64,000 bases of DNA. Source: Wenzhouxiangella sp. AB-CW3 (GTDB taxonomy: Bacteria; Pseudomonadota; Gammaproteobacteria; Xanthomonadales; Wenzhouxiangellaceae). The stretch lies in contig NZ_CP061368.1 in NCBI RefSeq assembly GCF_014725735.1, forward strand, positions 2,991,225-3,055,224, given 5' to 3'. A program made the translations under genes and the position numbers. Positions 8,276 to 62,036 of this stretch are shown in pieces (position 1 is the stretch's first letter; every line of letters begins with the position of its first letter). The notes below the pieces were generated by a model. That model was not told the origin of the DNA. It saw only the letters and a program-made list of their open reading frames with translations, and ran no database searches.

Positions 8276-8306
8276 TTCAAACCCGGGCAGCAATTGACCA
8301 CGCCGA

Positions 8307-44075: not shown

Positions 44076-46877
44076 TCAGAGTCTGTATCCGACGGTAAGA
44101 AAGTACTCTCTGCCGACCGGGTTGTACTTCCTGATGTCGGCGTAGGGCCACCAGGCTTCCGTTTCGTGTCGGGGAGGTGTCTTGTCAAAGAGGTTGACCA
44201 CATTGACGCCAAAGTACAGCGAATCCGATACCTGATAGTTGGTCGTCAGATTGACGGTCGTCCAGGGAGAATGTCTTTCGTACTCTTCTGCATACCGAAC
44301 AGGTGATGAACCCAGTCGATTGATGTGCATGAACGTCCCCAGCTTCCCTCCAGACCAGCCCAGGGTGACATTGGTCCGGGTCCGGAACTCGGTGTTCCAC
44401 AGTCGATCCCGAATATCCTCGATGTCGTCTTCCGGAAGGAACCGATCCAGCGTTCTGAGGATATGGGTATAGGACACGTTCAGAGAGAAGCGGCCGAGAT
44501 TTTCCGTATTGAAATTCGAACGCCAGGTAGCATCGACACCATCCTGCTGCCGAAGCCCGGTATTGAAGGGACTCGTAATGACCGATGAAACTTCATCATT
44601 CGGACCACCCCGGGTGACCCTGTCGAGCATCGCCTGGCACCTCGGGGAAGACGCATCGCTATCGCGACCTTCTTCATCAAAGCCCAGCATGCATTCGGCA
44701 TAGTATCTCAACACGGTATTGGCACCAATCAGGCCGATCTGATCTTCAAGCTTGATGCGGAAGTAGTCGACGGTAAAGGAATGGTTGTTTCCGATATCAC
44801 CCACCATGCCAATGTTGACATTGGTGCCGCTTTCCTCGCGCAAGGACGGATCACCCTCCGAGAACTGACGAATGGAGCCCGTACCATAGAGCTCACCACA
44901 GCCCTGCCAGCTCTCGCCCCGGGTCAGACCCTCTTCGTTGACACACTGGAGATAGTCGACGCCTGAGGTGAATGATGAGCTGCGCTCGGCAAACATGACA
45001 TGCATGTCCGGCGCACGAAACGACGTGGCACGCGAAGCCCGGAACATGAGGCTGTCTGTCGGCCGCCAGCTCACGCCGGCCTGGTAGGTCATGGCGCCAC
45101 CCACATCCGATGCATCATCATAGTAATCGTATCGGGCCGCGAGCTTCATGTCCCACTGTCCGATCCGGGAATCCCGCTCAAGCAACGGCACGGCCAGCTC
45201 ACCCCCGATGGCATAGCGATTTCGACTGCCGCTGCCGCGGATACCACTCCAGCCCCAGATCTCTCCATCAACGGTAGGCTGATCGGTAATGAAACGATAG
45301 GTGTCTCGACTGGCTTCGGCAACAGCAGCGAAATGGACGTCTCCCGCAGGCAGGCTGAAAGCGGCACCTGTCAGGTCTGCACTCAAAGACTGGGTCGTCG
45401 AACGCCCATCACCGCTGGATTCGTGCAAGGCTTCGGAGAACATCTCGGGAGTGAGCTCGCCAAACAGATCGAATCGGGTCGGCAGCAAATCCTGGCTCAA
45501 CTGTTGTTCACCAACCCGAACCCAACGACTGCCCTCCCAGGGATGGAACCAGTCTTCACCTTTCTGCCCAAAGAGAAGGCTCAACATGGCCTCGTCATTG
45601 AATCGACCTACGCTGTCCTTGTACTGATAGCGACCTGCAGTATAGTTCAGTCCGTAATCATACTCGCCAATGAACCCCTGAATGCCCAGCGACAGCACGA
45701 GATTGGTCTCACTGAACTCTTGCTGGCTGGTGGGAACTTCATGATCCCTGAAGGATCGCCAGACATGTCGCCAGCCAACCGTCTGGGGCGCTTCGGCATC
45801 GATATCGTCGACCACTTGATAGTCGACACCAAAGCTGTAGCGATACAGGCCTGCATCAGCTTCAGAACGGGTGGCCAGCAGATCCGCATACACTTCATGC
45901 ATGCCCATCTCGTGCGACAGGCTGGCAAATCCGAACAGACGGTCGCGCGCATTCCTCACGGTGTATGTCCCGAAGATATTGTCACCGCAGTACTGTTCCG
46001 GCCCCTCCCCCGCCCAGCCGGGACGAACCGACGAATAGCCCAGTGGCTCGCACATGTCGCCGATATCCAGAAGGTCCCAATCGGCTGTGCGATCCCAATA
46101 TGACATGACCTGCGAAAGCTCGCGCTGTTCCGGATCGGGCGACAGCTCGGGACGATCGAACCAGTCGCGTTGATCACCTCTTATGGGCCGTCTCCTGTCA
46201 ACCTCCAGCCCATAGGTGAACCGCGTTGTGTCATTGCCCAGACCGGACACCAGCGAAAAGCGGTGGGATTGCCCTCCGCCATGCCAGTTATCGCCATACC
46301 TGTAGGTCAGCTCCATGCCGTCAACATTGTCCTTCAGGATGATATTGACCACCCCGGCAACTGCGTCTGAGCCATAGATTGCAGAAGCACCACTGCTGAG
46401 CACCTCCACCCGCTCGATGGCCGTGGACGGGATCATGGCCAGGTTAACGACATTGCCTGACACGGTTCCGGCCGGCTTGGGCAATACGGGGATACGTCGC
46501 CCGTTGAGAAGAACCAGGGTGTAGCCCGGGCCAAAGCCACGAAGATTGAGTGACTGGGCATTGGCCAGGAAGTTGTTCGTCACTTCCTCGCCGATGAACA
46601 TTCCGGTATTGATGCTCAGGTTGCTGAGAACATCGAAGGCGTTGGCGAAACCCTGTCGATCAATCTCTTCGGAGGAGAGCACATAAACGGGGTCGACGGT
46701 TTCCTGATCGATACGCTGAATCCTTGACCCGGTCACCACCATGCGCTCAAGCGCATCCTCCTCGTCGTAATCATCCTCGGTTTCCGTTTCGGCATGCAGA
46801 TTGCCAACCACCATCATTGATGGCAGCAAAATTCCGCATATCACTTTCAAAGCTGCATTGAAATAGAATTCCTGCAT
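44076..46877 (-). CDS. TonB-dependent receptor 2
   Basis: 933 residues, signal peptide at 8-29. Plug start MVVTGSRIQRIDQETVDPVYV; SLNLRGFGPGYTLVLLNGRR and IYGSDAVAGVVNIILKD follow; the barrel ends PVGREYFLTVGYRL. GGAGG lies 8-13 bp before ATG 46877. Its promoter shares about 85 bp with that of receptor 3, including the 16-bp motif and -10. A decayed S9 peptidase end lies directly upstream. The base composition is visibly lower in GC than the core genes. Probably takes up a collagen-derived product, by context. Confidence 0.9.
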   Translation of the reverse strand: MQEFYFNAALKVICGILLPSMMVVGNLHAETETEDDYDEEDALERMVVTGSRIQRIDQETVDPVYVLSSEEIDRQGFANAFDVLSNLSINTGMFIGEEVTNNFLANAQSLNLRGFGPGYTLVLLNGRRIPVLPKPAGTVSGNVVNLAMIPSTAIERVEVLSSGASAIYGSDAVAGVVNIILKDNVDGMELTYRYGDNWHGGGQSHRFSLVSGLGNDTTRFTYGLEVDRRRPIRGDQRDWFDRPELSPDPEQRELSQVMSYWDRTADWDLLDIGDMCEPLGYSSVRPGWAGEGPEQYCGDNIFGTYTVRNARDRLFGFASLSHEMGMHEVYADLLATRSEADAGLYRYSFGVDYQVVDDIDAEAPQTVGWRHVWRSFRDHEVPTSQQEFSETNLVLSLGIQGFIGEYDYGLNYTAGRYQYKDSVGRFNDEAMLSLLFGQKGEDWFHPWEGSRWVRVGEQQLSQDLLPTRFDLFGELTPEMFSEALHESSGDGRSTTQSLSADLTGAAFSLPAGDVHFAAVAEASRDTYRFITDQPTVDGEIWGWSGIRGSGSRNRYAIGGELAVPLLERDSRIGQWDMKLAARYDYYDDASDVGGAMTYQAGVSWRPTDSLMFRASRATSFRAPDMHVMFAERSSSFTSGVDYLQCVNEEGLTRGESWQGCGELYGTGSIRQFSEGDPSLREESGTNVNIGMVGDIGNNHSFTVDYFRIKLEDQIGLIGANTVLRYYAECMLGFDEEGRDSDASSPRCQAMLDRVTRGGPNDEVSSVITSPFNTGLRQQDGVDATWRSNFNTENLGRFSLNVSYTHILRTLDRFLPEDDIEDIRDRLWNTEFRTRTNVTLGWSGGKLGTFMHINRLGSSPVRYAEEYERHSPWTTVNLTTNYQVSDSLYFGVNVVNLFDKTPPRHETEAWWPYADIRKYNPVGREYFLTVGYRL

Positions 46878-46954
46878 TGCTTATCCCTCCTCCCTGTTCG
46901 TTGAGATGAAAATTGCTTGTCTTACAACTCATACTAGGGAGGAACATTCCGGCC

Positions 46955-46997
46955 GCTATAGCATTCATTGAATCAATTTGATGCGGAATCCGGCACA
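46955..46997 (-). promoter_or_regulatory. Receptor 2 promoter with shared 16-bp activator-like motif (site A)
   Basis: Motif TGCGGAATCCGGCACA at 46982-46997 (plus strand), then 18 bp, then an extended -10 TGCTATAGC on the minus strand (46955-46963). No good -35, consistent with need for an activator. Start codon about 70 bp further. Confidence 0.65.
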
Positions 46998-47125
46998 AGC
47001 TTGCGATCTCCCTTCGGCACGATCGCACCCTGCAAGTGCTGGACAAGGAAGTCGAACTTTTCTCTTTGAACAGACTTGACGGGGCCGTTCGATCTGCCCG
47101 CCGCATGTCGCATCGATCCCAAAAA
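46973..47125 (-). pseudogene. Remnant 3' end of a second S9 prolyl-type peptidase gene
   Basis: The minus-strand frame (stop at 46973-46975) gives about 50 codons containing LGSMRHAAGRSNGPVK, QREKFDFLVQHLQ. This matches the C terminus of the intact peptidase at 50331 (GEGHGVGRSNGPIDYV, RRKFDFFVTHLL). It holds the catalytic His region but no start. The rest of the gene is gone, replaced by the receptor 3 terminator. The match is continuous in frame over about 25 residues, so it is a true relic rather than chance. Confidence 0.7.
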
Positions 47126-47138
47126 GGGGTGCGGGAAA

Positions 47139-47163
47139 GAGGGCCACCTGCGGAGTGGCCCTC
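47139..47163 (-). terminator. Hairpin terminator of receptor 3
   Basis: 9-bp perfect stem GAGGGCCAC / GTGGCCCTC with 7-base loop, 21 bp after the stop. The T-run is short (CTTTCCC on the minus strand). Confidence 0.6.
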
Positions 47164-47184
47164 AGTGCGTGTCACAGTGCTTTC

Positions 47185-50097
47185 CTAGAAACGGGCTCGG
47201 ACGCCTGCAAATACAAAACGGCCAATCAGATTGTCATGAACTTGATTGCCACGAGCCGTAAACGGATGGCCGCGGGGACCGGTGTCGAAGACATTATTCA
47301 CCCCGCCATAAACCCGGAGATCATCAGTTAGGTTATAGCCGGCGGAAAGGTCATGATACCAAATGGACGGAATGTTGAACCATTCGCCAACGTCCTCTTG
47401 AGGGTTCTCAACTATATTGCTGGTGACGGTACCGCCCACATATCGGCTTTGCCAGGTCAGGTTGAACCTTCTGAACTCATAGCCGATATTAGCAATGAAC
47501 TGAAACTCAGGATTCCCTGATAGTCCGGCGTTTTCGAAGGGTGTCTCCTCTCCACTGACCAGGTCACGCTCAATGAAGCGGTTTTTCATGAGATAGGAGG
47601 AGATACCCCTGAGGTTGAAGCTCCCTACTTCACGGTCGACTCTGAAAAGATCTGCACCGTCAAACTGATAGGACACTTCCATGTCTACGCCCTCGACCTC
47701 AAATGCTGACGCATTGATGTAGCTGTCGCGCACTTCTCCGATATTCCCATCTGGCTGGCGAGTAACAAAGTCGCAAAACTGATTGTCAAGGCTCGGCAGA
47801 TCCACGCAGTTGTTGAGAATCTGCTGGGCTCCGACACGGGCGATGCCGCCGCCGAGATCGATGCTGTACCAATCTGCTGAGATACTCAGCCCCGGAGCAA
47901 AGCGAGGCTGCGCGACCGCGCCGATGGTCCATGTGTCACCGACCTCCACATCGAGGTCGGGATTCCCGGTGGTGAACACCAGTGTTGTGACCCTGCGGGT
48001 GTCAGGATTGAAGGTGTCGGGATCAAGCCCCAGGGCTGCACAATTCGAGCGCCGTGATTCAGATCCGCTATCGAGAAGCAGCGGATCGCATGGGTCGCTC
48101 AACCCGGCAGCACCCCGGCTACCGGGATCGAAAAGCTCTCCCAAGGACGGAGCGCGCACTGCTCGCGCCCGGGTAACCCGGAAGCGGACATCATCCACCG
48201 GCGCCCATGAACCGGCCAACTTCCAGGAGTCAACTCCGCCAGCACGCTGGTAGTCAGAACGTCTGTAAGCCCCTTCAACCTCCAGGGCTTGAATCAGCGG
48301 ACGATCAACTACCAACGGCACAAGAACTTCAGCAAACGCTTCTCTAACGTCATTCGATTCTCTGACCGGCGAAAACTGGCTCGCGAAGAAGCCTTGGGCT
48401 CCTTTCCATACGGATGACGGCCTGAAATCCAAGGCGTCTTTTCGATATTCAAGACCAGCGGAGAGTTGGGCAGCACCGGCGGGCACCTCGAACAACTCCC
48501 CTGCAACCAGAGTCTGAAAGACATTCTGTGTAGTTTCAGTGGTGGTGGTGTGATCCACGCGGATGTAGTCAACTGCTTCCTGTGAAATTGTTCCCTCGCC
48601 AAAGATATTGACAGGGACGCAACCGCGGGCCCGCGCTTTAGCGCTACGACACACAATCTTGTTTGTATCAGGGTCTCGAATGGCGTCCGACGCCTCAAAC
48701 CACCGCTCATCGATTCGGTCGTTCAAGTTGCGGTTCGTTGTGTTGGATTGCCCAAATTCGTAAGCAGCCGACCAAGTCCAGTCGTCAACCACTGAACCTT
48801 CAAAGCCAACAGCCACGCTATAGTATTTACGGTTGATATCAGCCCCGCGCATGCCGAATTCGTCGTGCTGTCGTGCGTACGAGAATTCGTCCAACCCCTC
48901 CGCCAGAAGGCCTTCACGGACCTGTTCAGGCATGTATGGGTTATCGACACTGACGAACGTGCTGAAGGAGTCAAAGACCGGGCCGATACGATCCTCAGCG
49001 CTGCTATCGCTGAAAGTGCCCTCGGCAAAGAAGTCCAGATTGGGCCGCAACTCATAGTTCGCCGATCCGAAGATCGTTGTCCGCTCAAGCGGAGCGACCA
49101 GGGTATCCGGGCCTTGGGTGCCACCTTCTACTTGAGAGTAGGATCCGTCGATCACGCCTCTTGGGCCCGCCTCTATCGGACGAAACGTCTGCAGGCTGCT
49201 ATCGAAGATGACGTCAGTGAACTCACCATCAGAACCGAACGGCAGGAACGCCGTCGGCGTTGGAATACCGAAGTATGCGAACCTCAGGTCCCGTAGAGGG
49301 ATTCTGGCGGGAATGCCGTCGTCCGGCCCGGTGTTCTCGGGATTGGAAACGAATGCGAAGCTTGCCCCTAGATCGCGGTCAGCTCTGGTGAGGCGGTCAT
49401 TCTCTGATCGGCTGACGTGAAAGACGGCATTGCCACGGTCGTAGTTGGCGCCCGCGGTCAGCCCGAACATTGATGTATCGTAATCGCCGGCTCCGGTTAT
49501 CCCGTATTGACCGAATGTCTCCAAACCTTCGAAGTCGTCACGGAGGATAATGTTGACGACCCCCGCGACAGCATCGGCACCGTACACGGCAGATGTGCCG
49601 CCGGTCTGCACTTCAACTCGCTCGATAAGCGCCGTTGGAATGTTGCTCAAATCAAACGCCAGAAAGTTGGAGTCGTCCGGCGTTCCCGCCCTGCGACGAC
49701 CATTCACCAGCGTTAGGGTTCTCCGCACTCCCAGGTTGCGCAAGTTGACCTGATTGAGCCCAATGTTTCCAAAACTAAAACTTGTATTCTCGTTGGAGAA
49801 GCCAGTAGCAATCTGTGGAAGTTCATTAATGATATCGGCCACGTTCACGATACCCGCCGCCTCGATTTCTTCTGCTTCGACCGATATCGTAGGAGTTGGA
49901 GCATCGAATCCCGTTCGACGGAGCCGCGAACCGGTAACAACAATGGTTTCCAGGGCTTCGGGCGCACTCTCCGACTCCCGAGGCTCGTCTTCCCCTGCCT
50001 CCTGAGCAGACATGTTTACGTTGGCAAAGACTGCCAGTGCGACCCCACACATCAGTTGCATGCGAACTGCGCTGCTTAGTCTGTCTGAACCCTTCAT
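47185..50097 (-). CDS. TonB-dependent receptor 3
   Basis: 970 residues. Signal peptide near 12-30 (cut after NMSA-Q), plug motif IVVTGSRLRRTGFDAPTPTI, then VNLRNLGVRRTLTLVNGRRR and VYGADAVAGVVNIILRDDF; the barrel closes with FVFAGVRARF. GGGAGGAAAC lies 4-13 bp before ATG 50097. It follows the hydroxyproline operon directly but has its own promoter. A peptide or amino-acid ligand would fit the neighbours; this is inference from position. Confidence 0.9.
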   Translation of the reverse strand: MKGSDRLSSAVRMQLMCGVALAVFANVNMSAQEAGEDEPRESESAPEALETIVVTGSRLRRTGFDAPTPTISVEAEEIEAAGIVNVADIINELPQIATGFSNENTSFSFGNIGLNQVNLRNLGVRRTLTLVNGRRRAGTPDDSNFLAFDLSNIPTALIERVEVQTGGTSAVYGADAVAGVVNIILRDDFEGLETFGQYGITGAGDYDTSMFGLTAGANYDRGNAVFHVSRSENDRLTRADRDLGASFAFVSNPENTGPDDGIPARIPLRDLRFAYFGIPTPTAFLPFGSDGEFTDVIFDSSLQTFRPIEAGPRGVIDGSYSQVEGGTQGPDTLVAPLERTTIFGSANYELRPNLDFFAEGTFSDSSAEDRIGPVFDSFSTFVSVDNPYMPEQVREGLLAEGLDEFSYARQHDEFGMRGADINRKYYSVAVGFEGSVVDDWTWSAAYEFGQSNTTNRNLNDRIDERWFEASDAIRDPDTNKIVCRSAKARARGCVPVNIFGEGTISQEAVDYIRVDHTTTTETTQNVFQTLVAGELFEVPAGAAQLSAGLEYRKDALDFRPSSVWKGAQGFFASQFSPVRESNDVREAFAEVLVPLVVDRPLIQALEVEGAYRRSDYQRAGGVDSWKLAGSWAPVDDVRFRVTRARAVRAPSLGELFDPGSRGAAGLSDPCDPLLLDSGSESRRSNCAALGLDPDTFNPDTRRVTTLVFTTGNPDLDVEVGDTWTIGAVAQPRFAPGLSISADWYSIDLGGGIARVGAQQILNNCVDLPSLDNQFCDFVTRQPDGNIGEVRDSYINASAFEVEGVDMEVSYQFDGADLFRVDREVGSFNLRGISSYLMKNRFIERDLVSGEETPFENAGLSGNPEFQFIANIGYEFRRFNLTWQSRYVGGTVTSNIVENPQEDVGEWFNIPSIWYHDLSAGYNLTDDLRVYGGVNNVFDTGPRGHPFTARGNQVHDNLIGRFVFAGVRARF

Positions 50098-50194
50098 ACG
50101 TTTCCTCCCTCTCGGAGTTTTTCAGATTGAATCTTGCTGCTCCTGTGCGGAGTCTCGGCATTTACAGGTCAATCTTAGGAAGAGACGCATGTGT

Positions 50195-50237
50195 TCTATA
50201 GCACGGATGAATCCCAATTGGTGCGGAAGTCGGCACA
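50195..50237 (-). promoter_or_regulatory. Receptor 3 promoter with shared 16-bp motif (site B)
   Basis: TGCGGAAGTCGGCACA at 50222-50237, 18 bp, then extended -10 TGCTATAGA on the minus strand (50195-50203). With one flanking base it is the dyad GTGC-N8-GCAC. Confidence 0.65.
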
Positions 50238-50330
50238 TTGCAAGCAGTACCGAGAAACCTCTCACGTCACTGCTCCGCACCACCACCGGGATTGCCGGAG
50301 CAAACTTTCAGCCTGCCCGGCGAGTGGCAC

Positions 50331-52640
50331 TCAGGGAGTAGTCTGTCTATTCCACTCCGGCGTGGACTGCTCAAGCAGGTGAGTTACGAAGAAGTCGAAT
50401 TTTCTTCGATTAACATAATCGATGGGGCCGTTCGATCTTCCCACTCCGTGCCCTTCACCGGGAAGCGCCAGCAGATCGAAATCCTTGTTCGCCTGGATGA
50501 GTGCATCGACCACCTGCCAGGTCGATGCCGGGTCGACATTGCTGTCCTGCTCACCGAGGATCAACAGCAGGCGGCCCTGCAGACGATGAGCCTGATCCAC
50601 TCCCGAGGACTGGCTATAGCTTTCATCCACGGGCCATCCCATCCACTGCTCGTTCCAGCTGATCTTGTCCATGCGGTTGTCATAGCAGCCGTTATAGGCC
50701 ACCGCAACGGTGTAAAAGTCCGAATGGAACAACAAGGCACCCAACGCACTCTGACCACCCGCCGAAGCCCCGTAGATCCCCACGCCTCGCTCGATGTCGT
50801 AGGAAGGGTCGGCTTCGGCCAACGCACGGTGCCAGGCAATGCGGTCCGGGAAACCGGAATCGCCGAGATTCTTCCACGCGACATCATGAAATGCCTTGGA
50901 CCGATTCATGGTGCCCATGCCGTCAATCTGCACGACAATGAAGCCGAGATCGGCCAGGGCCTGCATGCCGATTACCTTGTCGCCTGCTGCATGGCGTCCA
51001 AATGGCCAGAACGTCTTGGGCACAAAGGAATCATGCGGGCCTGCGTAGATGTTCTCGATGACCGGATAGCGCTGTTCCGGGTCATAGTCGGTGGGCCTGA
51101 CGATCAGTCCGTGGATCGGTGTTTCGCCATCTCGCCCCGGCGCGACGAAGGGTTCCGGGTAGCGGAACCCGGCTTCTTTCAAGGTCTCGACGTCACCTTC
51201 TTCAAGCGTGGCCAGCAACTCGCCGCTGCGGGCATCTCGCAGCTCGCTGACCGTGGGATGATCAACCCGCGACCAGGTGTTCACGTAGTAGTCCAGATCG
51301 GGGGACAGACTGACATCGTGCCAGGCATCGTGCGGGGTCATGTGGCGCAGATTGCGCCCATCGAAGTCGATGCGGTAGACATGCTGGAAATAGGGATCGC
51401 CGGGTTCCCGGCCACTGGCGGCAAACCAGATCTCGCGACGCTGTTCGTCCACCTCCAGCACCCGGCGAACGACCCACTCTCCTTCGGTCAGCTGCCGGGC
51501 CCTGCCAGTCTTTCCATCGTACAAGTAAAGGTGGTTCCAGCCATCTCTTTCCGACATCCACAGGATTTCGCGCCCGAGCTGCTTGACATCGTGGAAGAAA
51601 CCACGGTGCCACCAGTCGTTGACGAAAGTCTCGCTGGTTTCATCAATGACCACCCGGGCCTCGCCGCTTTCTGTATCCACTTCAATGAGTCGCACCCGCT
51701 GATGCCCGCGCTCGACAAAGCGAAAGGCCAGCGACTTTCCGTCGTCGCGGAACTGCATGGCCGACATGCGGAAGGGGTTGGCGAACAGGTCCGTGGAGAC
51801 ATTGAGCTGGCGGGACTCGTCGACCTGAAAGATTACCGGGCTTTCGATATCCACCGGATCTCCCGGCTTGGGATAAAGCTGGGATTGCAGGCGCGGTTGA
51901 AGCTGATCCCCGGGTGCGGTTTCCACGCGCTTGACCTGGCGCGGATAACCGGGCCGGACCCGGTAGATGGCCAGGCGGCTGGAATCCGGCGACCAGACCA
52001 GGCTTTCGGGATCATAGAAGTGGCCTTCGGTGCCGTCCTGGCTGAGCTGGCGGACTTCACCGTCTTCGGTGCTGCGCAGCATCACATTGTGATCACGCAC
52101 GAAAGCCTCGTAACGACCATCCGGTGAAGGTCTGGGCGTGTTGTCGGCCGGGACCGACAGGTCCCTGACCACACCGAAGGCTCGTGGACGGGATTCCGGT
52201 CCGTCGCGTGTCACGGTTTGGCATGCGTATTCGTCTTCTATGTCGCAGCGGAGTTCGTCTCCGTGTGCCCGGAAACGAACGGCTCGCCGGTCATCGCGGA
52301 AGGAGAACGAGCTGAATGGCAGCCTCAGTGCCTGTTGCTCGCGGCCGGTTGCATCGGCCAGCGCATCAGCCAGTTTCTGGTGATCGAAGGCTGGCCGTGC
52401 CTCGCCGTCTTCTACATGACGCAACATGAACTCGAAACCACCGGCTGTTGTGCGGCGATAGTAGAAATGCTGCTCATCGGCCCATCGAGCGGGCTCGGCA
52501 ATATCCCGAGTCAGGTACATCCACTGATCCCGCAGGTTCAGAGAACGCTCGTAATCGTTCACTGCCGGTGCCGCCACGACTGTGGTGACACCAAGGCAGT
52601 AGAGCAGCAGGAACAATACGCCAGCATGTCTGTTTTGCAT
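50331..52640 (-). CDS. Exported S9-family dipeptidyl/prolyl peptidase
   Basis: 769 residues from ATG 52640, which has GGAG 7 bp upstream; an ATG three bases earlier is an alternative. Signal peptide at 8-24 (cut near VVAA-P). A beta-propeller of DPP-IV type (WSPDSSRLAIYRV, WMSERDGWNHLYLYD) occupies the middle. The C-terminal hydrolase holds Ser626 in YGASAGGQ, Asp699 in GEQDSNVDP and His731 in GEGHGVGR. DPP-IV-type enzymes remove X-Pro dipeptides; collagen fragments, rich in Pro and Hyp, are natural substrates. It starts 16 bp after the ALDH gene, the last gene of the Hyp operon. Confidence 0.9.
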   Translation of the reverse strand: MQNRHAGVLFLLLYCLGVTTVVAAPAVNDYERSLNLRDQWMYLTRDIAEPARWADEQHFYYRRTTAGGFEFMLRHVEDGEARPAFDHQKLADALADATGREQQALRLPFSSFSFRDDRRAVRFRAHGDELRCDIEDEYACQTVTRDGPESRPRAFGVVRDLSVPADNTPRPSPDGRYEAFVRDHNVMLRSTEDGEVRQLSQDGTEGHFYDPESLVWSPDSSRLAIYRVRPGYPRQVKRVETAPGDQLQPRLQSQLYPKPGDPVDIESPVIFQVDESRQLNVSTDLFANPFRMSAMQFRDDGKSLAFRFVERGHQRVRLIEVDTESGEARVVIDETSETFVNDWWHRGFFHDVKQLGREILWMSERDGWNHLYLYDGKTGRARQLTEGEWVVRRVLEVDEQRREIWFAASGREPGDPYFQHVYRIDFDGRNLRHMTPHDAWHDVSLSPDLDYYVNTWSRVDHPTVSELRDARSGELLATLEEGDVETLKEAGFRYPEPFVAPGRDGETPIHGLIVRPTDYDPEQRYPVIENIYAGPHDSFVPKTFWPFGRHAAGDKVIGMQALADLGFIVVQIDGMGTMNRSKAFHDVAWKNLGDSGFPDRIAWHRALAEADPSYDIERGVGIYGASAGGQSALGALLFHSDFYTVAVAYNGCYDNRMDKISWNEQWMGWPVDESYSQSSGVDQAHRLQGRLLLILGEQDSNVDPASTWQVVDALIQANKDFDLLALPGEGHGVGRSNGPIDYVNRRKFDFFVTHLLEQSTPEWNRQTTP

Positions 52641-52656
52641 CATGTCTCTCCAGGGT

Positions 52657-54249
52657 TCAGCGCCGAGGTTCGATGTCGGCGGTTGTCCAGTGACCGTCAA
52701 TCAGGCGCTGTACACCACCAGGATTGCGATCTCGCAGCTCGACGGGCAACAGATCGTCGGCAACATCGTCGTAGCAGTGCAGTGCGGCAAAGCGGGTAAT
52801 CGCCGCCGGCATGCCCACAGCAGTATGATGGACGCTGGTCGTGCTTGGATACGGCCCGCCATGGTTCTGTGCCGCACTGACAGCCACGCCGGTGGGCATG
52901 TGACTGTTGATCAGGCGCCCGACGCGCGGCCGCAGGCGGGCTGCCAGTTTCTTCCAGTGATCATCGTCTGCACCGTCGCCGCCGCGGTAGATGGCTGCCG
53001 TCAGATTACCTTCCAGCACTTCTGCTATTGCCAGCGCCTGCTCCATGTCGCTGACCCGAACAAGCAAGCTGACCGGCCCGAATGCTTCGGCCTGCAACTG
53101 TTCACTGTCAGCCAGAAAGCGCTCGCCATCGACGCTCATCAGCGTGGGAACAAAACGATATCCGGGTGTACCGGAGTGGCCACCACAGATCAGGCTGGCG
53201 CCGGCGGCACGCAACTGCTCAACGGATGCTTCCAGCTCGTCGAGGACACCGCGCGAGAACAGCACCATCGGATCGGCCTGCCCGAACAACTGACTGGCCT
53301 GGTCGACGAAGTCATCGCCATGACGGCCACGGGGCGCGACAACCAGCCCCGGATTGGTGCAGAACTGTCCGCTGCCCAGCATGCAGGAGCTGGCGAACTC
53401 GTTGGCAATGTCCCCACCCCGCTCAGCCAGCGCGCCCGGCAGGAGGAATACCGGGTTCAGGCTGGAGAGCTCGGCAAACACGGGGACGCCGGCCGGGTCG
53501 GCTGCTGCCTTGAGTGCCAGTCCGGCCTGACGACTACCGGTAAAGGCAATGGCCCCGAGTCGTCGGTCGGCGGCCACTCGCTGGCCCAGTGCATGGTCGA
53601 AGTGATAGAGCAACTGCAGCGTGCCAGCAGGCAGCCCGGCCGTGGCCAGCGCATGATGCGCCAGTTCGGCCATGCGTCGGGTCGTGGCCGGGTGCGACGG
53701 ATGCCCCTTGGCAATGACCGGATTGCGCGCCGCGATGGCGGAGGCAAAATCACTGCCGGCCACTGCATTGAAGGCAAACGGAAAGTTGTTGGGCCCCATC
53801 ACCAAAACGGGTTTACCCAGCGGCGCCAGGTGTGAGCGCAGACCGGCCTCGGTATCGATGACCGGATGAGTCCAGCTGCATGCCCGCACGGCCTGTGCCG
53901 CCTCGCGCAACTGACCGACCGTGCGTGGCAACTCCACCTGCACAAGGCGTGGCGTTTTTGGCAAGGCAGTTTCCGCATGGGCCAAATTGGACAGAGTCTC
54001 CGCATCACCGGCCAGAGCATCGGCATAGGTGGCAAGAAAATCGGCCACCTGGGCCGGACTCGCCGCCGACAACTCTGCTGCAGCCTCCTGGCCGGCGGCC
54101 AGGGCCGCCTCCAGATCGATCTGGCCACTGACCGGAAACTCCGGCCCGATGGCCACACCTTGTTGCGGATCCTCGGCACGAAAAACATTGGTCGCATCCA
54201 TGCTGGGTTGCCAGCACCCGGCAAGCAATAGCGGCTGATCACTACTCAT
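52657..54249 (-). CDS. 2-oxoglutarate semialdehyde (2,5-dioxovalerate) dehydrogenase
   Basis: 530 residues from ATG 54249; a GTG three bases earlier also fits. Aldehyde dehydrogenase with catalytic Cys297 (SGQFCTNPGL), general base Glu260 (VFAELSSLNP) and substrate-loop Asn in GPNNFPF. The FCTNPG and SSLNP blocks identify the ketoglutarate-semialdehyde group rather than general ALDH. It oxidises the semialdehyde made by the deaminase to 2-oxoglutarate with NADP or NAD, the last step of hydroxyproline use. The start overlaps the deaminase stop by one base (TGATG). Confidence 0.92.
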   Translation of the reverse strand: MSSDQPLLLAGCWQPSMDATNVFRAEDPQQGVAIGPEFPVSGQIDLEAALAAGQEAAAELSAASPAQVADFLATYADALAGDAETLSNLAHAETALPKTPRLVQVELPRTVGQLREAAQAVRACSWTHPVIDTEAGLRSHLAPLGKPVLVMGPNNFPFAFNAVAGSDFASAIAARNPVIAKGHPSHPATTRRMAELAHHALATAGLPAGTLQLLYHFDHALGQRVAADRRLGAIAFTGSRQAGLALKAAADPAGVPVFAELSSLNPVFLLPGALAERGGDIANEFASSCMLGSGQFCTNPGLVVAPRGRHGDDFVDQASQLFGQADPMVLFSRGVLDELEASVEQLRAAGASLICGGHSGTPGYRFVPTLMSVDGERFLADSEQLQAEAFGPVSLLVRVSDMEQALAIAEVLEGNLTAAIYRGGDGADDDHWKKLAARLRPRVGRLINSHMPTGVAVSAAQNHGGPYPSTTSVHHTAVGMPAAITRFAALHCYDDVADDLLPVELRDRNPGGVQRLIDGHWTTADIEPRR

Positions 54250-55154
54250 CACGCGGCCTTTCGCACTGCAATGGCCTGATCGATCACCGCCAGGGCCTGG
54301 CGCTGCTCTTCCTCGGACAGGGGCAGTCTCGGTGCGCGCACCGTGGCCTGGCCCAGTCCGACCCGCTCCTGCATCAGCTTGATCAACTGAACGAACTTCG
54401 GCACGGTATCCATGCGCAGCAACGGCAACGCCCAGTCGTACAACTCTCGCGCCGCCTCGTAGCCACCATCACGCGCCAGCTCGAACAAGCGAACCGACTC
54501 TTCCGGAAAGGCATTGACGACACCGGCAATCCAGCCTTCCGCCCCCATGCTGACACCTTCGACCAACAGGTCATCCATGCCAACCAGCAGGGTCAACCGA
54601 TCACCTACAAGCTCCTTGATGGCGGCAAAGCGACGGATATCGCCTGAAGATTCCTTGACCGCCTGCATGTGCGGAAACTCATTGGCCAGTTCCGCAATCT
54701 GCTCTGGCGTAAAGTCCACCCTGTAGGCCAGAGGGTTGTTATAGAAGATGACCGGCAGTTCGGTGGCTTGCATGACTGCACGCATGTGAGCACCCATTTC
54801 ATGCCAGTCGCTCTTGTAGACATAGGGCGGCAATACCATCAGGCCACCGCAGCCCTCGTCCTTGGCCACGCGTGCCAGCTCCACGGCCTCATCGGTCGTC
54901 AGTGCGGCAATACCTGGGGCCACCGGCACACGATCACCCACTGCGGCAACAACCGTCCGGATGATTTCGGCCTTTTCCTCGAATGAAAGCGTGGCGCCTT
55001 CGCCCAGGGAACCGATGGGAATGATGGCGCGACATCCGGCATCGACCAGGTGACGCGAATGCCGGGCGAGAAACTCGTGATCAACGTCTCCGGCTTGCGT
55101 GAACGGTGTGGTGATGGCCGGCAGTACGCCGTGCCACATCGAATGTGTACTCAT
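54249..55154 (-). CDS. 1-pyrroline-4-hydroxy-2-carboxylate deaminase (DHDPS family)
   Basis: 301 residues, DapA/NAL superfamily barrel: Schiff-base Lys167 (AVKESSGD), Tyr138 in FYNNPLAY, and GSLGEG (48-53) in place of the GTTGE of DapA. Between the dehydrogenase and semialdehyde dehydrogenase genes the role is clear: it deaminates and dehydrates Pyr4H2C to 2-oxoglutarate semialdehyde, releasing ammonia. A lysine-synthesis role is unlikely here. Overlaps the flavoprotein gene by 4 bp. Confidence 0.9.
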   Translation of the reverse strand: MSTHSMWHGVLPAITTPFTQAGDVDHEFLARHSRHLVDAGCRAIIPIGSLGEGATLSFEEKAEIIRTVVAAVGDRVPVAPGIAALTTDEAVELARVAKDEGCGGLMVLPPYVYKSDWHEMGAHMRAVMQATELPVIFYNNPLAYRVDFTPEQIAELANEFPHMQAVKESSGDIRRFAAIKELVGDRLTLLVGMDDLLVEGVSMGAEGWIAGVVNAFPEESVRLFELARDGGYEAARELYDWALPLLRMDTVPKFVQLIKLMQERVGLGQATVRAPRLPLSEEEQRQALAVIDQAIAVRKAA

Positions 55155-56461
55155 CTATCAGCACCTCTTGAGTGGGTTGAAAGGGAAGTCAGTGAATCTA
55201 TGGTGGCGGGGACCAGTGGAGGCCGCGGTCGGGCCAACGGCCTGGCATATCCCGGAAACGGCCTGAGCACTCGCAGGGCCGCACCGCAGATCCGTCCCTG
55301 GCAGGCCCCCATGCCGCAACGCGCGGCCAGGCGTGCATCGCGAGCATCGGTGCAATCGCGGAGCGCGTGCAGGGGAACATCCTCGCAGCGGCACACCAGG
55401 GTATGGTCTCCGGCCAGCGCAGCAACACGCTCGTCCAGCCGGAAGCAGTCGTGCAACAGCCCGGCAAAGGCGCGGGCACGCCGTCTTTGCCGGGCCAGGG
55501 CCTGTGCCGGGGCGGCATGGCCGGCGGCCATGTGTCCGGCAATGGCACCTTCAATCAGCGCGCAATCACGTCCACCGATACCGCACACTTCGCCTGCGGC
55601 CAGCACATGGCCGATGCTGGTGTGCTGGCCGTCATCAACCAGCACACAAGGCTGCCCTGCCTCCCGGGTCAGTTGGCAGCCCAGCATCGCGGCCAGTTCG
55701 ACATTCGGTACAAGTCCGTAACCGGTCGCCAGCAAATCGCAGTCGATACGTTGCCGTCGACCATGGTGATCCTCCACGGTCACGGCTTGCAGTCGCTGAT
55801 CGCCGTGCGCACAAGTCACCACGCTGCCAGCCCGGTAAGACACCCCGGCCAGGCGTGTACGCAAAGCCATGGCCTGCAGCAGTCGCTGCGGCCAGCGGGG
55901 CAGGTGAGCGGCAAATCGCCACAGGTTGCGCGGCGCTGTCTGTTCGTGGATCGCTAGTACGCGGGCACCATGCCGGCGCAGCGTGGCGGCCGTGGCCAGC
56001 AGCAGCGGACCACTGCCGGAAACCACCACCGAGCGATCACGCACCGGCCAGCCCTGTTTGGCCAGCGCCTGTGCCCCGCCGGCTCCCATCACGCCCGGCA
56101 GCGTCCAACCGGGAAACGGCAACAGCAGCTCCCGGGCACCGGTGGCCAGCACCAGGCGCCGACACGGCACGCGCACTGTGCCTTTTGCCGTCTCGGCCAA
56201 CAGCTCATCGGGCTGTCCCATCAGGATTTCCGACTGCCCCAACCAGGTCACGCCATGACGGGTCAGCGCGGCCATCATGCGGCGCGCCGGCGGCGGCATT
56301 CCCTGTTTTACATCGGTTCGCCAGACCTGGCCGCCGGCATCGGCCCGGGCATCCATGAGGCCAACACGCTTACCGTGCCGGGAGGCGGCGCGGGCCGCAG
56401 CCAGGCCAGCGGGCCCGGCACCGACAACAAGAACATCAAATTCCCGGCTGACCGATGTCAT
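55151..56461 (-). CDS. D-hydroxyproline dehydrogenase, FAD/[2Fe-2S] subunit (HcnB/LhpE-like)
   Basis: 436 residues from ATG 56461. N-terminal FAD motif GAGPAGLAAA (14-23), a second NAD-type motif near 150, then a BFD-like [2Fe-2S] domain: Cys357 and Cys359 in VCRCED, then Cys382, Cys387 and Cys392 in CGMGACQGRIC. This is the large NAD(FAD)-oxidoreductase subunit in HcnABC and in the three-part hydroxyproline dehydrogenase of Pseudomonas. It carries electrons between subunits. The upstream ATG would add a run encoded in the previous gene. Confidence 0.87.
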   Translation of the reverse strand: MTSVSREFDVLVVGAGPAGLAAARAASRHGKRVGLMDARADAGGQVWRTDVKQGMPPPARRMMAALTRHGVTWLGQSEILMGQPDELLAETAKGTVRVPCRRLVLATGARELLLPFPGWTLPGVMGAGGAQALAKQGWPVRDRSVVVSGSGPLLLATAATLRRHGARVLAIHEQTAPRNLWRFAAHLPRWPQRLLQAMALRTRLAGVSYRAGSVVTCAHGDQRLQAVTVEDHHGRRQRIDCDLLATGYGLVPNVELAAMLGCQLTREAGQPCVLVDDGQHTSIGHVLAAGEVCGIGGRDCALIEGAIAGHMAAGHAAPAQALARQRRRARAFAGLLHDCFRLDERVAALAGDHTLVCRCEDVPLHALRDCTDARDARLAARCGMGACQGRICGAALRVLRPFPGYARPLARPRPPLVPATIDSLTSLSTHSRGADR

Positions 56462-56709
56462 CGCGCATCGACCTCCACGCACATATCGTTGGTGACCGGA
56501 ACCATGCAGGCGCGTTGCCCCGGCCTGCCATTGATTCGCACCCGGCACTCAAAGCAGACTCCCATCCCGCAAAGCGGCATTCGCGTCTGACCCCTCACCG
56601 AGCGCCTGAAACCGAGATCGAGCCGGGCGATAGCCGCGGCCACGCTGGTTCCCGCCGGCACGGAAAGCGGCCGGGAGTTGACGGTCAGATGAATCCACTG
56701 CCTGCTCAT
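56458..56709 (-). CDS. D-hydroxyproline dehydrogenase, [2Fe-2S] subunit (HcnA/LhpF-like)
   Basis: 83 residues, a small plant-type ferredoxin: Cys47-X4-Cys52-X2-Cys55-X12-Cys68 (LCGMGVCFECRVRI). Such proteins are the electron-transfer gamma subunits of HcnABC-type amino acid dehydrogenases. Overlapping by 4 bp with genes on both sides, it sits exactly between its two FAD partners. Confidence 0.9.
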   Translation of the reverse strand: MSRQWIHLTVNSRPLSVPAGTSVAAAIARLDLGFRRSVRGQTRMPLCGMGVCFECRVRINGRPGQRACMVPVTNDMCVEVDAR

Positions 56710-57818
56710 GCGGCCGCACCTCGCACCACGCGTTCCGGCGAGAAACAGTCCAGCGCGAGAGTCGGCGCGCGTCCAAGCACCTGATCAATCAGTACACGTG
56801 CACTGCCCAGCGCCAGGGTCACACCCAGGCCTTCATGGCCGGCCGCCACCCAGACGTCGTCTCGACCGGGCACAGCGCCCAGGTAGGGACGGCCATCCGC
56901 GGTGGTCGGTCGAAAGCCGCTCCAGACCCGAATCACCTGCATCGGGCGCAATGCCGGCAGAAACCCGGTTGCTCGACGAAGCATGCGCGCCAGCATCTCG
57001 GGATCAATGGAGGCATCGGTGTTCCCGGTTTCCCGTGTCGAACCAATCAGAATCTGTCCGCCGGGACGCGGCTGCACATTGAAGGCGACGCTGTCCTCTT
57101 CGGTGGACTTGGCTGAATCCACGTACCCGGCTTCAATCAGTTGATGCTTGATCAAACGGGGATGGCGATCCGTGATGGCCAGGTAGCCCTTGCGCGGGTA
57201 CAGCGGCAGTTCCGGCAAGAACTCGGGCAGTGCAAGACCGCAGGCCAGGAGCACCTGCCCGGTCAGCTCCTCACCATCATCAAGCCGCACCCCGCCGGAC
57301 AGGACCTCGAGCACACGTCGTCCAGAGAACAGTTCGGCACCATTGCAACAGGCCACGTCCATCAGCAGGCGGGCTGCTGCGGGCGGGTAGATGACCATAT
57401 CTCCCGACACCCGCAGGGCACCGACCAGACCCGGTGCCAGTTCGGGTTCAAGCCGGTACAGCATGGTCTGGTTGACCATGTCGGCATTCACACCCGCCTG
57501 GGCCATTCTTTGCTTCTGTTTCGACAGCTCGGCCAGTGCGGCATCATCGGGTGCCAGCCACAACGTTCCGCAACGGTTGAGCTCGATCCCGCTGCTTGCA
57601 GCGAAACGCTGCCACAACTGCTGCGACCAGGCAGCGAACGCCAGTTCTTCCGGTGTGCCATCGAGCGCCACCACGTGTCCCATCGCCGCCGATGTCGTGC
57701 CGCCGCCAATGGTTTCCGATTCCACCACGGCAACCCGCAGCCCTTCACCGGCAGCGGCTTCGGCACAGGCGGCACCGACAATACCGGCACCCACGACAAC
57801 AAGATCAAAGCGAGCCAT
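56706..57818 (-). CDS. D-hydroxyproline dehydrogenase, catalytic FAD subunit (DadA/LhpB-like)
   Basis: 370 residues. N-terminal GAGIVGAA (10-17) and the DAO/glycine-oxidase fold, with PRKGYLAI, WSGFRPTTADGRPYLG and AAGHEGLGVTLA near the C terminus. It oxidises cis-4-hydroxy-D-proline to 1-pyrroline-4-hydroxy-2-carboxylate. DadA-type D-amino acid dehydrogenase or sarcosine oxidase are the family alternatives; the epimerase directly upstream decides for hydroxyproline. One-base overlap with the epimerase stop. Confidence 0.9.
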   Translation of the reverse strand: MARFDLVVVGAGIVGAACAEAAAGEGLRVAVVESETIGGGTTSAAMGHVVALDGTPEELAFAAWSQQLWQRFAASSGIELNRCGTLWLAPDDAALAELSKQKQRMAQAGVNADMVNQTMLYRLEPELAPGLVGALRVSGDMVIYPPAAARLLMDVACCNGAELFSGRRVLEVLSGGVRLDDGEELTGQVLLACGLALPEFLPELPLYPRKGYLAITDRHPRLIKHQLIEAGYVDSAKSTEEDSVAFNVQPRPGGQILIGSTRETGNTDASIDPEMLARMLRRATGFLPALRPMQVIRVWSGFRPTTADGRPYLGAVPGRDDVWVAAGHEGLGVTLALGSARVLIDQVLGRAPTLALDCFSPERVVRGAAA

Positions 57819-58768
57819 CAGGCGGCCGCTTCGTTGGCTATGCCCCAGGCAAAGGGATCGTCCGGGTCGATCAACAGACGGGACCGACCCGTGACATGCG
57901 CCTGGCCGGAAATGCGCGGAATGACTCCCCGCTCACCCCGTCGATAGCTGGCGAGAAACCGGGTTCCCAGAATGCCCTGCTGCACCCACAACTCGCCCTC
58001 GGCCAGTCGCTGATCGGCAGCCAGGCAGGCGACTTTGGCGCTGGTACCGGTGCCACAGGGCGAGCGGTCATACACAAGGCCCGGGCACAGCACGAAGTTG
58101 CGTGCCTGACCACTGCCGTCCGGCGCCCAGCCCTCGATCTTGATGTGATCGATCTCAGCACCTTCCGGCCCAGAAATACCCTGTGAGCGCAGGGCCTTGC
58201 GAATGCTTTCGGCGTACTCGCCAAGCTCACGGGCGTTGGCAATACACATGGAGCAGGGTGGTTGATACGTAATGTAGAACCAGTTGCCACCCCAGGCCAC
58301 ATCGCCACGTACCAGGCCATGTCCGGGCACGGTCAGTTCCACGTCCACCTGGTGGCGATAGCTTTCCACGTTCTCCAGCGAGATGCAGCCATCGGCGGTG
58401 ATGTCGAATGACACCAGGCCCACTGCCGTATCAACCCAATGCCGTCCGTAGCCGATCCTTCCCAGCTCCAGCAAGGTACGGGCCACCCCCATCAGGCCAT
58501 GCCCGCACATGCCCAGGTAACCGACGTTGTTGAAGAAGATGACCCCGGTACAGGCCTGAGCACTGACCGGGGGCACCAGCAGTGCACCAACCAGCACATC
58601 AGACCCGCGCGGTTCACAGACTATGGCGCGCCGCCAGGCATCGTGGCGCTCGGCAAAGCGCTGACGCAGAGTCAGCACGTCACCCTGGCCGAGATCGGGA
58701 AAACCCGACAACACAACCCGGGTCGGCTCACCGGCCGTGTGGGAGTCCATTACTTCAATCCAGTCCAT
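57818..58768 (-). CDS. 4-hydroxyproline 2-epimerase (proline racemase family)
   Basis: 316 residues from ATG 58768; the longer GTG start at 58798 would lie beside or before the transcription start predicted from site C. It interconverts trans-4-hydroxy-L-proline and cis-4-hydroxy-D-proline without cofactor. Both catalytic Cys are present, Cys88 in GMCGHGL and Cys238 in SPCGTGT, so it is an epimerase rather than the Ser/Thr-containing dehydratase. HTAGEPTRVV at 10-19 is the family start. First gene of the seven-gene operon. Confidence 0.94.
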   Translation of the reverse strand: MDWIEVMDSHTAGEPTRVVLSGFPDLGQGDVLTLRQRFAERHDAWRRAIVCEPRGSDVLVGALLVPPVSAQACTGVIFFNNVGYLGMCGHGLMGVARTLLELGRIGYGRHWVDTAVGLVSFDITADGCISLENVESYRHQVDVELTVPGHGLVRGDVAWGGNWFYITYQPPCSMCIANARELGEYAESIRKALRSQGISGPEGAEIDHIKIEGWAPDGSGQARNFVLCPGLVYDRSPCGTGTSAKVACLAADQRLAEGELWVQQGILGTRFLASYRRGERGVIPRISGQAHVTGRSRLLIDPDDPFAWGIANEAAA

Positions 58769-58798
58769 GGAAGCAATGATCCCACTGCCCATCCACAC

Positions 58799-58841
58799 AG
58801 ACTAGTGAGTTTCCGGTTGTCGCTATGCGGAAGTCAGCACA
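58799..58841 (-). promoter_or_regulatory. Hydroxyproline operon promoter with shared 16-bp motif (site C)
   Basis: TGCGGAAGTCAGCACA at 58826-58841, then 18 bp, then CACTAGTCT on the minus strand (58799-58807) at the same position as TGCTATAG in sites A and B. The 20 bases TGCGGAAGTCRGCACAWTGC are common to B and C. Confidence 0.6.
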
Positions 58842-61800: not shown

Positions 61801-62036
61801 TGCACCATGCCCCGATCATCCTCGGCCAGCGCCCAGTTCTGGCGGGCCGCGCCATAGTCGTCATCGTCGAAGACCTGCAGGGGCGGCAGACCGGTCTCGG
61901 GACCGGCCAGCGCCATCGAGGCCATCAGAACCAAAGAGAACTGGGCCAGCAAGACACTGGCCGGGCGAAGACAAAATGTGACCCTGGGCGCGATGTCGAA
62001 GAAGTCGAAAGACCCACCCCCCTTGACGGAGGTCAC
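58857..62036 (-). CDS. Beta-propeller / Y_Y_Y sensor diguanylate cyclase
   Basis: 1059 residues. An N-terminal signal or anchor (near 24-44) precedes a long periplasmic part of repeated Reg_prop-like blades (GRIYVGTVGDFGYL, GGLWMALNNGIAWL) and a Y_Y_Y domain ending before a membrane helix (785-803). The output is a coiled linker and GGDEF domain with active motif GGEEF (924-928) and inhibitory RDAD (915-918), so it should make cyclic di-GMP and be product-inhibited. Starts with GTG 62036, which lacks a good ribosome site. Between collagenase and Hyp operon, it may sense a polymer or peptide. Confidence 0.9.
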   Translation of the reverse strand: MTSVKGGGSFDFFDIAPRVTFCLRPASVLLAQFSLVLMASMALAGPETGLPPLQVFDDDDYGAARQNWALAEDDRGMVHVGNVDGVVLSFDGVRWRSTRVGTETIRSLAADADGRIYVGTVGDFGYLEPDEQGRRHFVSLRDQLPEENREFADVWAIFPTYDAVYFSTFAGLYRISDDGVQVWEPETRFHLAFEVAERIFVREVDRGLFELIDDELQPVPDGDHFADKRVYVMLPWGEREGYPEGSILIGTREVGWYVHDGDGLEQWETGIDEFLPDDLLYHAVRLDNGDLAVATLRGGLSLLDENGRLLRRMTREDGLPDSAVFRLHADRQGGLWMALNNGIAWLKPGSPISHFDRSLGLAGEVLAVDRYQGTIFVATTDGLHRMAVGADGAARFEPVEAIRGQTWGLLPTDDGLLVSAMEGVFRWREGEARMIRPSAQTSYAMLRSRSNPDRIWIGKHTGLAAIRSDGAGGWVDEGRSPEVNDEVRTFHETEDGVLWAGTQYRGVLKIAQDTDPEPGQNVWQQMSSPQRLGIVEAEEYGLIQVGEIDGALRFGSRRGILRYDAERGGLVGDQRFANLFPEGPRRMFPFTQDRQGRVWMYTVEPEQEIQQTAVASPTADGEYQLEHELAAPVFGMTVQAIEADDEGVVWLGADNALYRLDADRRVEPPSFPTLVRGVYERETGQVLYGGYGSLPSLQLAYADNTLRFEYAAPSYERFDATEYRVKLEGLDRDWSAWSSETFRDYTHIREGRYRFRVQSRNVYGVPGEEAAMEFRILPPWYRSLWAYLAYVIAAALLVAGVFQWRSTVLRRRNRILRQLVNERTRKLSEANRALAEQSLTDPLTGLRNRRFVSEQIPTDIAMVDRHYRNQRPDNADLLFMMMDIDHFKEVNDQHGHAAGDRVLQQMAQVLGQQVRDADTIVRWGGEEFLVVGRFADAGFAQSMAERLRQAIAAHPFDIGGGQSLRLTISLGFAQYPLFAQCPHRVDWEQVVNVADQCLYAAKQSWRDAWVGVRCGSEPPSTDQLQQVSRRLPELIEQGSLEVLVSRSDDPNGLRWTQKK

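Follow-up and report, generated by a model that had tools for sequence, protein, structure and literature searches.

Introduction

In Pseudomonas aeruginosa, LhpR (PA1261) is described as an AraC-family activator that turns on the lhp genes on binding L-hydroxyproline (L-Hyp), as reported in PMC6608401 with reference to Li et al. (2016), and a table in PMC8694187 places a PAS domain at its residues 1-107. A regulator of another kind, the GntR-type HypR, is reported to control hydroxyproline genes in many Proteobacteria (PMC5343134). We analyzed a 64,000-nucleotide stretch of the genome of Wenzhouxiangella sp. AB-CW3 (3,844,697 bp), C1:2991225-3055224, where C1 is contig NZ_CP061368.1; this whole stretch is called the window. 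A reading made from its sequence alone had picked out a motif, TGCGGAA-n2-CNGCACA, at three promoters and proposed that it defines a new regulon. We conclude that the motif is very probably the operator of a PAS-AraC, LhpR-like regulator that controls one collagen/hydroxyproline regulon, a judgment that covers operator, regulator, and regulon jointly and leaves the reading of the promoter aside. The regulon stands, but it is not new in kind, because an AraC-family hydroxyproline activator, LhpR, was already known in P. aeruginosa.

Results

Five sites share an operator and a promoter geometry

The motif is present exactly as described at 46982, 50222, and 58826 (sites A, B, and C), with no other exact copy in the window, and these three are also the only exact matches in the whole genome. 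Site A (TGTGCCGGATTCCGCA in the promoter direction; 46982..46997, minus strand) lies upstream of TonB-dependent receptor 2, site B (TGTGCCGACTTCCGCA; 50222..50237, minus strand) upstream of TonB-dependent receptor 3, and site C (TGTGCTGACTTCCGCA; 58826..58841, minus strand) upstream of the hydroxyproline epimerase operon, where it is the counterpart of the epimerase sites of relatives. Allowing one mismatch gives eight matches in the genome, two of which fall 0.7 and 4.1 kb past the end of the window. Site D (C1:3055896-3055911) is at the collagenase promoter, a place past the window edge to which the sequence-only reading had pointed; it has one mismatch and the same spacing, and it lies 139 bp upstream of the M9 collagenase start. 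Site E (C1:3059283-3059298), also with one mismatch, is upstream of a PD40/amidohydrolase gene, with a regulator gene divergent to it.

Read in the promoter direction, all five sites follow the pattern TGTGC, six bases, TCCGCA (or a one-base variant), 20 bp, and CTA. The dyad GTGC-N8-GCAC reported for site B is there, and each of the five sites shows symmetry at five or six of the seven pairs of the central 14 bp (TGCnGAnnTCnGCA). The box that begins with CTA is CTATAG at 46956..46961 for site A, CTATAG at 50196..50201 for site B, and CTAGTC at 58800..58805 for site C, all on the minus strand. A fixed 18-bp spacing had been claimed. The constancy holds, but in our recount the motif and the TA of the box are 21 bp apart, a distance that falls to 18 bp when the box is taken to include the three bases ahead of the TA.

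Loose scans for the motif alone were near background and were discarded as evidence: up to three mismatches gave 33 matches in the window against a shuffle mean of 30, and up to two gave 127 genomic matches, where the reversed pattern gave 82. Joined to its spacer and box (motif + N20 + CTA, at most one mismatch), the motif occurs three times in the window and never in 100 shuffles. Motif + N21 + TA at the same threshold has five matches in the genome, every one in the collagen/hydroxyproline cluster, and the reversed pattern has none; relaxing motif + N20 + CTA to three mismatches adds eight scattered genomic matches, compared with four in the control. It is therefore the fixed geometry that makes the occurrence of the motif non-random.

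A PAS-AraC regulator accompanies the geometry across the order

The sequence-only reading had found no regulator of this kind encoded next to the motif. This does not hold past the window: a PAS-AraC gene (C1:3059364-3060086) is divergent to site E, 4.1 kb beyond the end, and across the order the geometry goes with this gene. Its product (PAS_4 + HTH_18) has 241 amino acids from the chosen start and 304 as the longest open reading frame. A PAS domain (PF08448, 66 bits) lies N-terminal to an AraC-type DNA-binding domain (PF12833, 78 bits; PF00165, 62 bits), which places the protein in the AraC/XylS family, and the profile of the DNA-binding half matches the structures of AraC, SoxS, and MarA. 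The gene is near the hydroxyproline catabolic genes, in the same cluster.

Regulator loci, taken as up to 10 kb on each side of the regulator gene and labeled with L numbers, were collected in two sets that overlap in species. Set 1 is the best 80 of more than 565 candidates from a profile search with an alignment, a search that returned no matches when the single regulator sequence was the query; set 2 comes from a sample of 151 genomes and covers 29 of its 30 further regulator places. An epimerase (tblastn above 150 bits) was found inside the locus in 46/80 cases in set 1 and 15/29 in set 2, and the strict pattern lies within 300 bp upstream of it in 45/46 and 10/15 of these. Three of the six misses still have recognizable sites, slightly altered in L130 (one box base changed) and L069 and degenerate in L075 (18.9 bits with the matrix described below, against a shuffle maximum of 6.7). 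Among the loci without an epimerase (34 and 14), sites were found elsewhere in 2 and 2, and none in 32 and 12. The regulator gene is mostly divergent to the epimerase gene; in L139, both run in the same direction. Operator and geometry are conserved at orthologous loci, upstream of the epimerase where the regulator is present.

Of 398 genomes surveyed in the order, 132 carry the regulator (E of 1e-40 or better) and 79 have the exact geometry, each of the 79 being a carrier; the hypergeometric probability of this overlap is 4e-48 if shared descent is ignored. The 79 genomes have one to three such sites apiece, and the reversed control has none in the genomes listed. In the 151-genome sample, the exact motif + N21 + TA is found at nine sites in seven genomes, all of them carriers. 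Geometry and regulator co-occur, and this bears on whether the operator might instead belong to a global CRP/Clp-like protein. The core is palindromic, and TGTGC-N6-CCGCA loosely resembles the CRP consensus. However, proteins of the CRP/Clp kind occur widely and act at numerous sites, while the exact geometry is confined to PAS-AraC genomes (79/79) at a few sites each; although no dedicated CRP/Clp site search was made, we consider this assignment very unlikely.

The same comparison speaks to a chance resemblance that was spread by duplicating one promoter within the cluster. In its favor, the flanking bases of sites A and B are alike; these two may themselves stem from one duplication, as the sequence-only reading suggested, but the receptors they precede, 2 and 3, are 36% identical over 212 amino acids in their best BLASTP segment. 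The same operator and geometry stand ahead of orthologous and of different targets across the order, data that refute a chance resemblance spread in this way, and we regard that account as almost certainly wrong.

In a tree of 58 thinned regulator sequences, the protein studied here groups with those of L096 and L100 (98/97), both of which have an epimerase and a site, and its own branch is long. Proteins from Pseudomonas, Acinetobacter, and Burkholderia, including that of the P. aeruginosa locus L206, form a group of their own (99/94) outside the Xanthomonadales rows. A paralogue clade (100/100, eight rows) without epimerase or site arises among the Xanthomonadales rows, and our protein is outside it. 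The members of that clade are L080, L081, L086, L088, L090, L091, L145, and L160, from Stenotrophomonas, Xanthomonas, Dyella, and others. One further locus, L169, is on a contig titled Bacillus subtilis SK7B5 and encodes a Stenotrophomonas-like regulator; the assembly is probably mislabeled or contaminated.

At E 1e-20, the regulator was found in 27/151 genomes. Our own genome is the only one of these in its family: 29 others from the genus and 13 from elsewhere in the family, many of them incomplete, gave no match. A close epimerase is present in this genome only among 43 of the family, two others having homologues at 30% identity. As sampled, the cluster is isolated within its family, and acquisition by transfer is likely.

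Several observations weigh against this assignment of operator, regulator, and regulon. A near-palindromic operator is unusual for an AraC-type site. Three loci with the most distant regulators (L093, L094, and L095, 38-42% identity) have both regulator and epimerase but no site, and 53/132 regulator carriers lack the exact geometry, some of them being paralogues or having variant sites. The one-mismatch motif + N21 + TA is found in 11/124 non-carriers, compared with 17/27 carriers, and the reversed control has matches in 24/151 genomes; the non-carrier matches are in line with that background. On the regulator tree, site presence is clustered but does not form one clade (10 changes, against a shuffled mean of 19.7). 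Within the cluster itself, a third TonB receptor (receptor 1, 40356-43577) and a GGDEF/propeller gene (58857-62036) have no site.

The probable targets form a collagen and hydroxyproline cluster

All five sites serve one cluster, which points to one regulon for the use of collagen and hydroxyproline. The seven genes after site C, all on the minus strand, begin with the 4-hydroxyproline epimerase (57818..58768; PF05544, 318 bits, above the family cut-off). Its ATG at 58768 is motif position 74, a start suggested by the orthologues, while the longest open reading frame begins at 58798. Against NCBIfam NF052296, it scores 384 bits, below the cut-off of 450, and it is the operon context that supports its function. 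It is followed by a DAO-family oxidoreductase dependent on flavin adenine dinucleotide (FAD), probably an LhpB-like subunit (56706..57818; PF01266), and by an open reading frame for an 83-residue protein with a 2Fe-2S-type cysteine pattern (56458..56709), which has no match in NCBIfam, the one collection searched, and whose position and cysteines suggest an LhpF-like protein. Next come a putative LhpE-like FAD/NAD(P) oxidoreductase (55151..56461, a predicted start, the longest open reading frame beginning at 56548; PF07992), a dihydrodipicolinate-synthase family protein that may be the deaminase of the pathway (54249..55154; PF00701), and an aldehyde dehydrogenase that would act on 2-oxoglutarate semialdehyde (52657..54252; PF00171). 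The last gene, a DPP-IV/S9 peptidase (50331..52700; PF00930, PF00326), overlaps the one before it. With these presumptive steps, the content of the operon agrees with the conversion of trans-4-hydroxyproline to 2-oxoglutarate described in PMC6608401.

The other targets are TonB-dependent receptor 3 (47185..50097) and receptor 2 (44076..46877), both with PF00593 and PF07715; the M9 collagenase, whose in-window part spans 62197..64000 (PF01752, PF08453) and whose start is past the edge; and the PD40/amidohydrolase protein at site E. The receptors and the collagenase are on the minus strand. The GGDEF protein mentioned above, which has a two-component-type propeller, is flanked by the collagenase and the epimerase operon.

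With such targets, a GntR-type hydroxyproline regulator of the HypR kind might also be thought to bind the near-palindrome. Besides the wide role of HypR noted in the Introduction, the Streptomyces HypR is reported to control an M9 collagenase (PMC6608401), and at the P. aeruginosa locus L206 a GntR gene stands beside the epimerase. Yet no GntR protein was found among the cluster genes searched for families, a search that took in only some of the small open reading frames, and the gene adjoining the site is the PAS-AraC one, so we judge a GntR regulator most unlikely here.

The box reads somewhat better as a -35 than as a -10 element

The box had been read as a -10 element without a -35. Its conservation is borne out, but its identity as a -10 is doubtful, and we prefer to read it as a -35. 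The promoter alignment comprises 105 distinct sites, 70 at epimerases and 35 other or unassigned (at least one of the latter, L059, precedes an epimerase). The selection pattern fixed both operator and box, so only the free columns are informative; those conserved are -1, 0, 17, 29, 30, 41, 42, and 62-68. The hexamer ?A??AT begins at position 61 or 62 in 65/70 epimerase sites and 28/35 others, with a median of 0 elsewhere. In the thinned set, it does so in 36/47 sites, whereas the average for 66 offset pairs is 2.0; the next pairs have 19 and 17, each sharing an offset with 61/62, and then 8. It is present at all five sites of this genome (TAGTAT, TAAGAT, GATCAT, GAGAAT, and GATGAT), at 46931..46936 for site A, 50172..50177 for site B, and 58776..58781 for site C, 7 bp ahead of the epimerase ATG, in each case on the minus strand and at a position conserved among the sites compared. 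A -35 matrix, run on the set of 44 sites described below, has its best score at the box. Conservation of columns 62-68 merely as a Shine-Dalgarno sequence was considered and rejected, as it persists where the start codon is far downstream.

On balance, we lean toward C[TA]AGAC as a degenerate -35 with ?A??AT, 17-18 bp further on, as the -10. The operator would then be centered near -64.5 and the epimerase ATG would lie at about +1, giving a leaderless message; these transcription starts are predicted from sequence. With the same regulator and regulon, the box could instead be the -10, in which case the operator, centered at -41.5, would replace the -35 as in class II activation, and the epimerase would have a leader of about 25 nucleotides. 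In favor of this, the -10 matrix scores best at position 38, the box, and prefers it to position 61, which comes second (-0.59 vs -1.85), in a set of 44 sites labeled non-epimerase that still includes several epimerase sites. Likewise, the boxes of sites A, B, and D are TATA-like (TATAGC, TATAGA, and TATATT), and four bases of AGGAGG occur 4-16 nucleotides upstream of the epimerase ATG in 25/70 sites and three in 31/70. The hexamer, moreover, was chosen after the alignment had been viewed, and the sites are related by descent. Against a -10 box, the sequence in other genera is CAAGAC or CTAGAC, a poor -10; ?A??AT recurs 17-18 bp past it even where the start codon is far downstream; fewer than three AGGAGG bases are present in 14/70 epimerase sites; and the ATG is held at motif positions 73-75 in 65/70, which a free leader would not lead one to expect. 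We therefore find the -10 assignment doubtful. We also looked nearby for the operator repeated in degenerate form, direct or inverted, and found no such copy, the best mean matrix scores being strongly negative.

Related sites occur beyond the order, and probable targets differ among relatives

We scored 14 loci with a matrix built from the 47 thinned sites, taking the highest of six shuffles as control. At the P. aeruginosa lhp locus, the matrix gave two hits with the same spacing, 26.6 bits ahead of lhpD and 15.5 ahead of the epimerase, against a shuffle maximum of 7.8. This locus, L206 (NZ_CP131792.1), is in an 847-kb P. aeruginosa plasmid record that is typed conjugative and holds the whole lhp hydroxyproline locus. 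Paraburkholderia gave 26.2 against 7.9, the best site lying upstream of a transporter gene and a weaker one upstream of the epimerase; Acinetobacter gave 22.0 upstream of the epimerase against 13.5; Burkholderia L208 gave 19.9 against 11.8, at a site with no assigned target; and Deinococcus gave 15.7 and 9.9 against 5.1, one of the two being upstream of a racemase operon. The epimerase sites of P. aeruginosa and Acinetobacter have the variant half-site TTCGTCA in common. In L080, the score was 10.8 bits (shuffle maximum 4.5), but there is no C[TA]A box, and L077, L090, L093, L094, L095, and L146 had nothing above their shuffles.

Other targets of the sites in relatives are a GH127 beta-L-arabinofuranosidase, a 785-residue protein without a family, a DUF885 protein, and TonB-dependent receptors. 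HypBA1, a GH127 enzyme, is described as freeing arabinose linked to the hydroxyproline of plant glycoproteins (PMC6085000). The GH127 gene directly follows the site in 7/7 genomes checked of family f12, whereas 8/8 genomes checked of the genus Xanthomonas (g42) have it at a distance of about 6 to 20 kb; none was found in the Wenzhouxiangella genome. A direct target role for the Xanthomonas GH127 gene was not supported; immediately downstream of the site there is the gene for the 785-residue protein. In G317 (C1:1864954-1866064 of that genome), the GH127 gene that follows the site is split into two fragments that differ in reading frame and is possibly broken. Proteins of about 785 residues with a twin-arginine-like start (L256, L243, L274) are encoded downstream of the operator or of the GH127 gene in Xanthomonas- and Dyella-like genomes; the one member searched has no Pfam or NCBIfam match, and we regard the protein as a candidate enzyme for hydroxyproline-rich glycoproteins. 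M9 collagenase genes are also within the regulator loci L094, L095, L137, and L209. Some related bacteria seem to use the same switch on plant cell-wall proteins instead of collagen.

Separately, at 5711-8335 of locus L278 (C1:2775710-2778334), a 172-bp unit is repeated head to tail about 15 times, with 97% matches.

Discussion

The promoters of this regulon share an operator set at a constant distance, which is most easily read as the site of a putative activator that touches the polymerase. The PAS domain would sense hydroxyproline or a catabolite of it, and the PAS-AraC protein would then act as an activator, binding all five sites and switching on the M9 collagenase, the PD40/amidohydrolase protein, the operon from epimerase to DPP-IV, and two TonB-dependent receptors. 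For PAS-AraC sensors of hydroxyproline, the analysis defines an operator and a promoter geometry precisely enough to be tested, and it would link the sensing of hydroxyproline to an M9 collagenase and to TonB-dependent receptors. It also points to a possible second input controlling genes whose products strip plant hydroxyproline-rich glycoproteins. For example, hypBA1 of Xanthomonas euvesicatoria is reported to rise in plants without a PIP box (PMC6085000). The operator may be the cause of this rise, though the GH127 gene is far from the site in the g42 genomes.

More broadly, PAS-AraC hydroxyproline sensors may have kept one promoter grammar, consisting of operator, 20-bp spacer, C[TA]AGAC box, 17-18 bp, and -10, with the start codon as the first transcribed base at the epimerase; its operator and box would have been kept from Deinococcus to Xanthomonas. 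The outer targets would meanwhile have been swapped, with a collagenase and receptors in this genome and GH127 and other apparently secreted enzymes in relatives. This proposal is tentative, and we would put its chances a little short of even. If true, the sensor would read a sign common to animal collagen and plant hydroxyproline-rich glycoproteins.

In the literature searched, which took in few subscription journals, we came across neither a description of the operator nor one of an AraC-type regulon that includes a collagenase. The nearest systems each resemble this one in part. For the sensor half of the regulator, the closest solved matches are PAS-LuxR regulators (Vibrio VqmA; PDB 6ide, 6ugl, and 6kju; E about 3e-9); those proteins have a LuxR-type DNA-binding domain and an autoinducer ligand, whereas the one here is AraC-type. 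XylS/AraC-type activators bind direct-repeat sites next to the -35 and keep a fixed spacing between operator and core promoter. The fixed spacing is found here too, but a second full copy of the operator was not found nearby in either orientation. HypR regulons serve the same pathway, in Streptomyces including the M9 collagenase; HypR, however, belongs to another protein family, is a repressor, and in Streptomyces recognizes CTNTGC(A/C)ATGTCAC (PMC6608401).

LhpR likewise resembles the regulator studied here. Both proteins combine PAS and AraC domains, and the AraC-type protein of L206, which from its place appears to be the PA1261 orthologue, is 45% identical to ours; in our matrix comparison, that locus has related operators at the same spacing. 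The half-site differs, being TTCCGCA here and TTCGGCA and TTCGTCA in P. aeruginosa, and the regulon described here takes in collagenase, amidohydrolase, DPP-IV, and TonB receptors as well. Judged by these sequence features, the Wenzhouxiangella regulator probably works like LhpR and belongs to the LhpR group.

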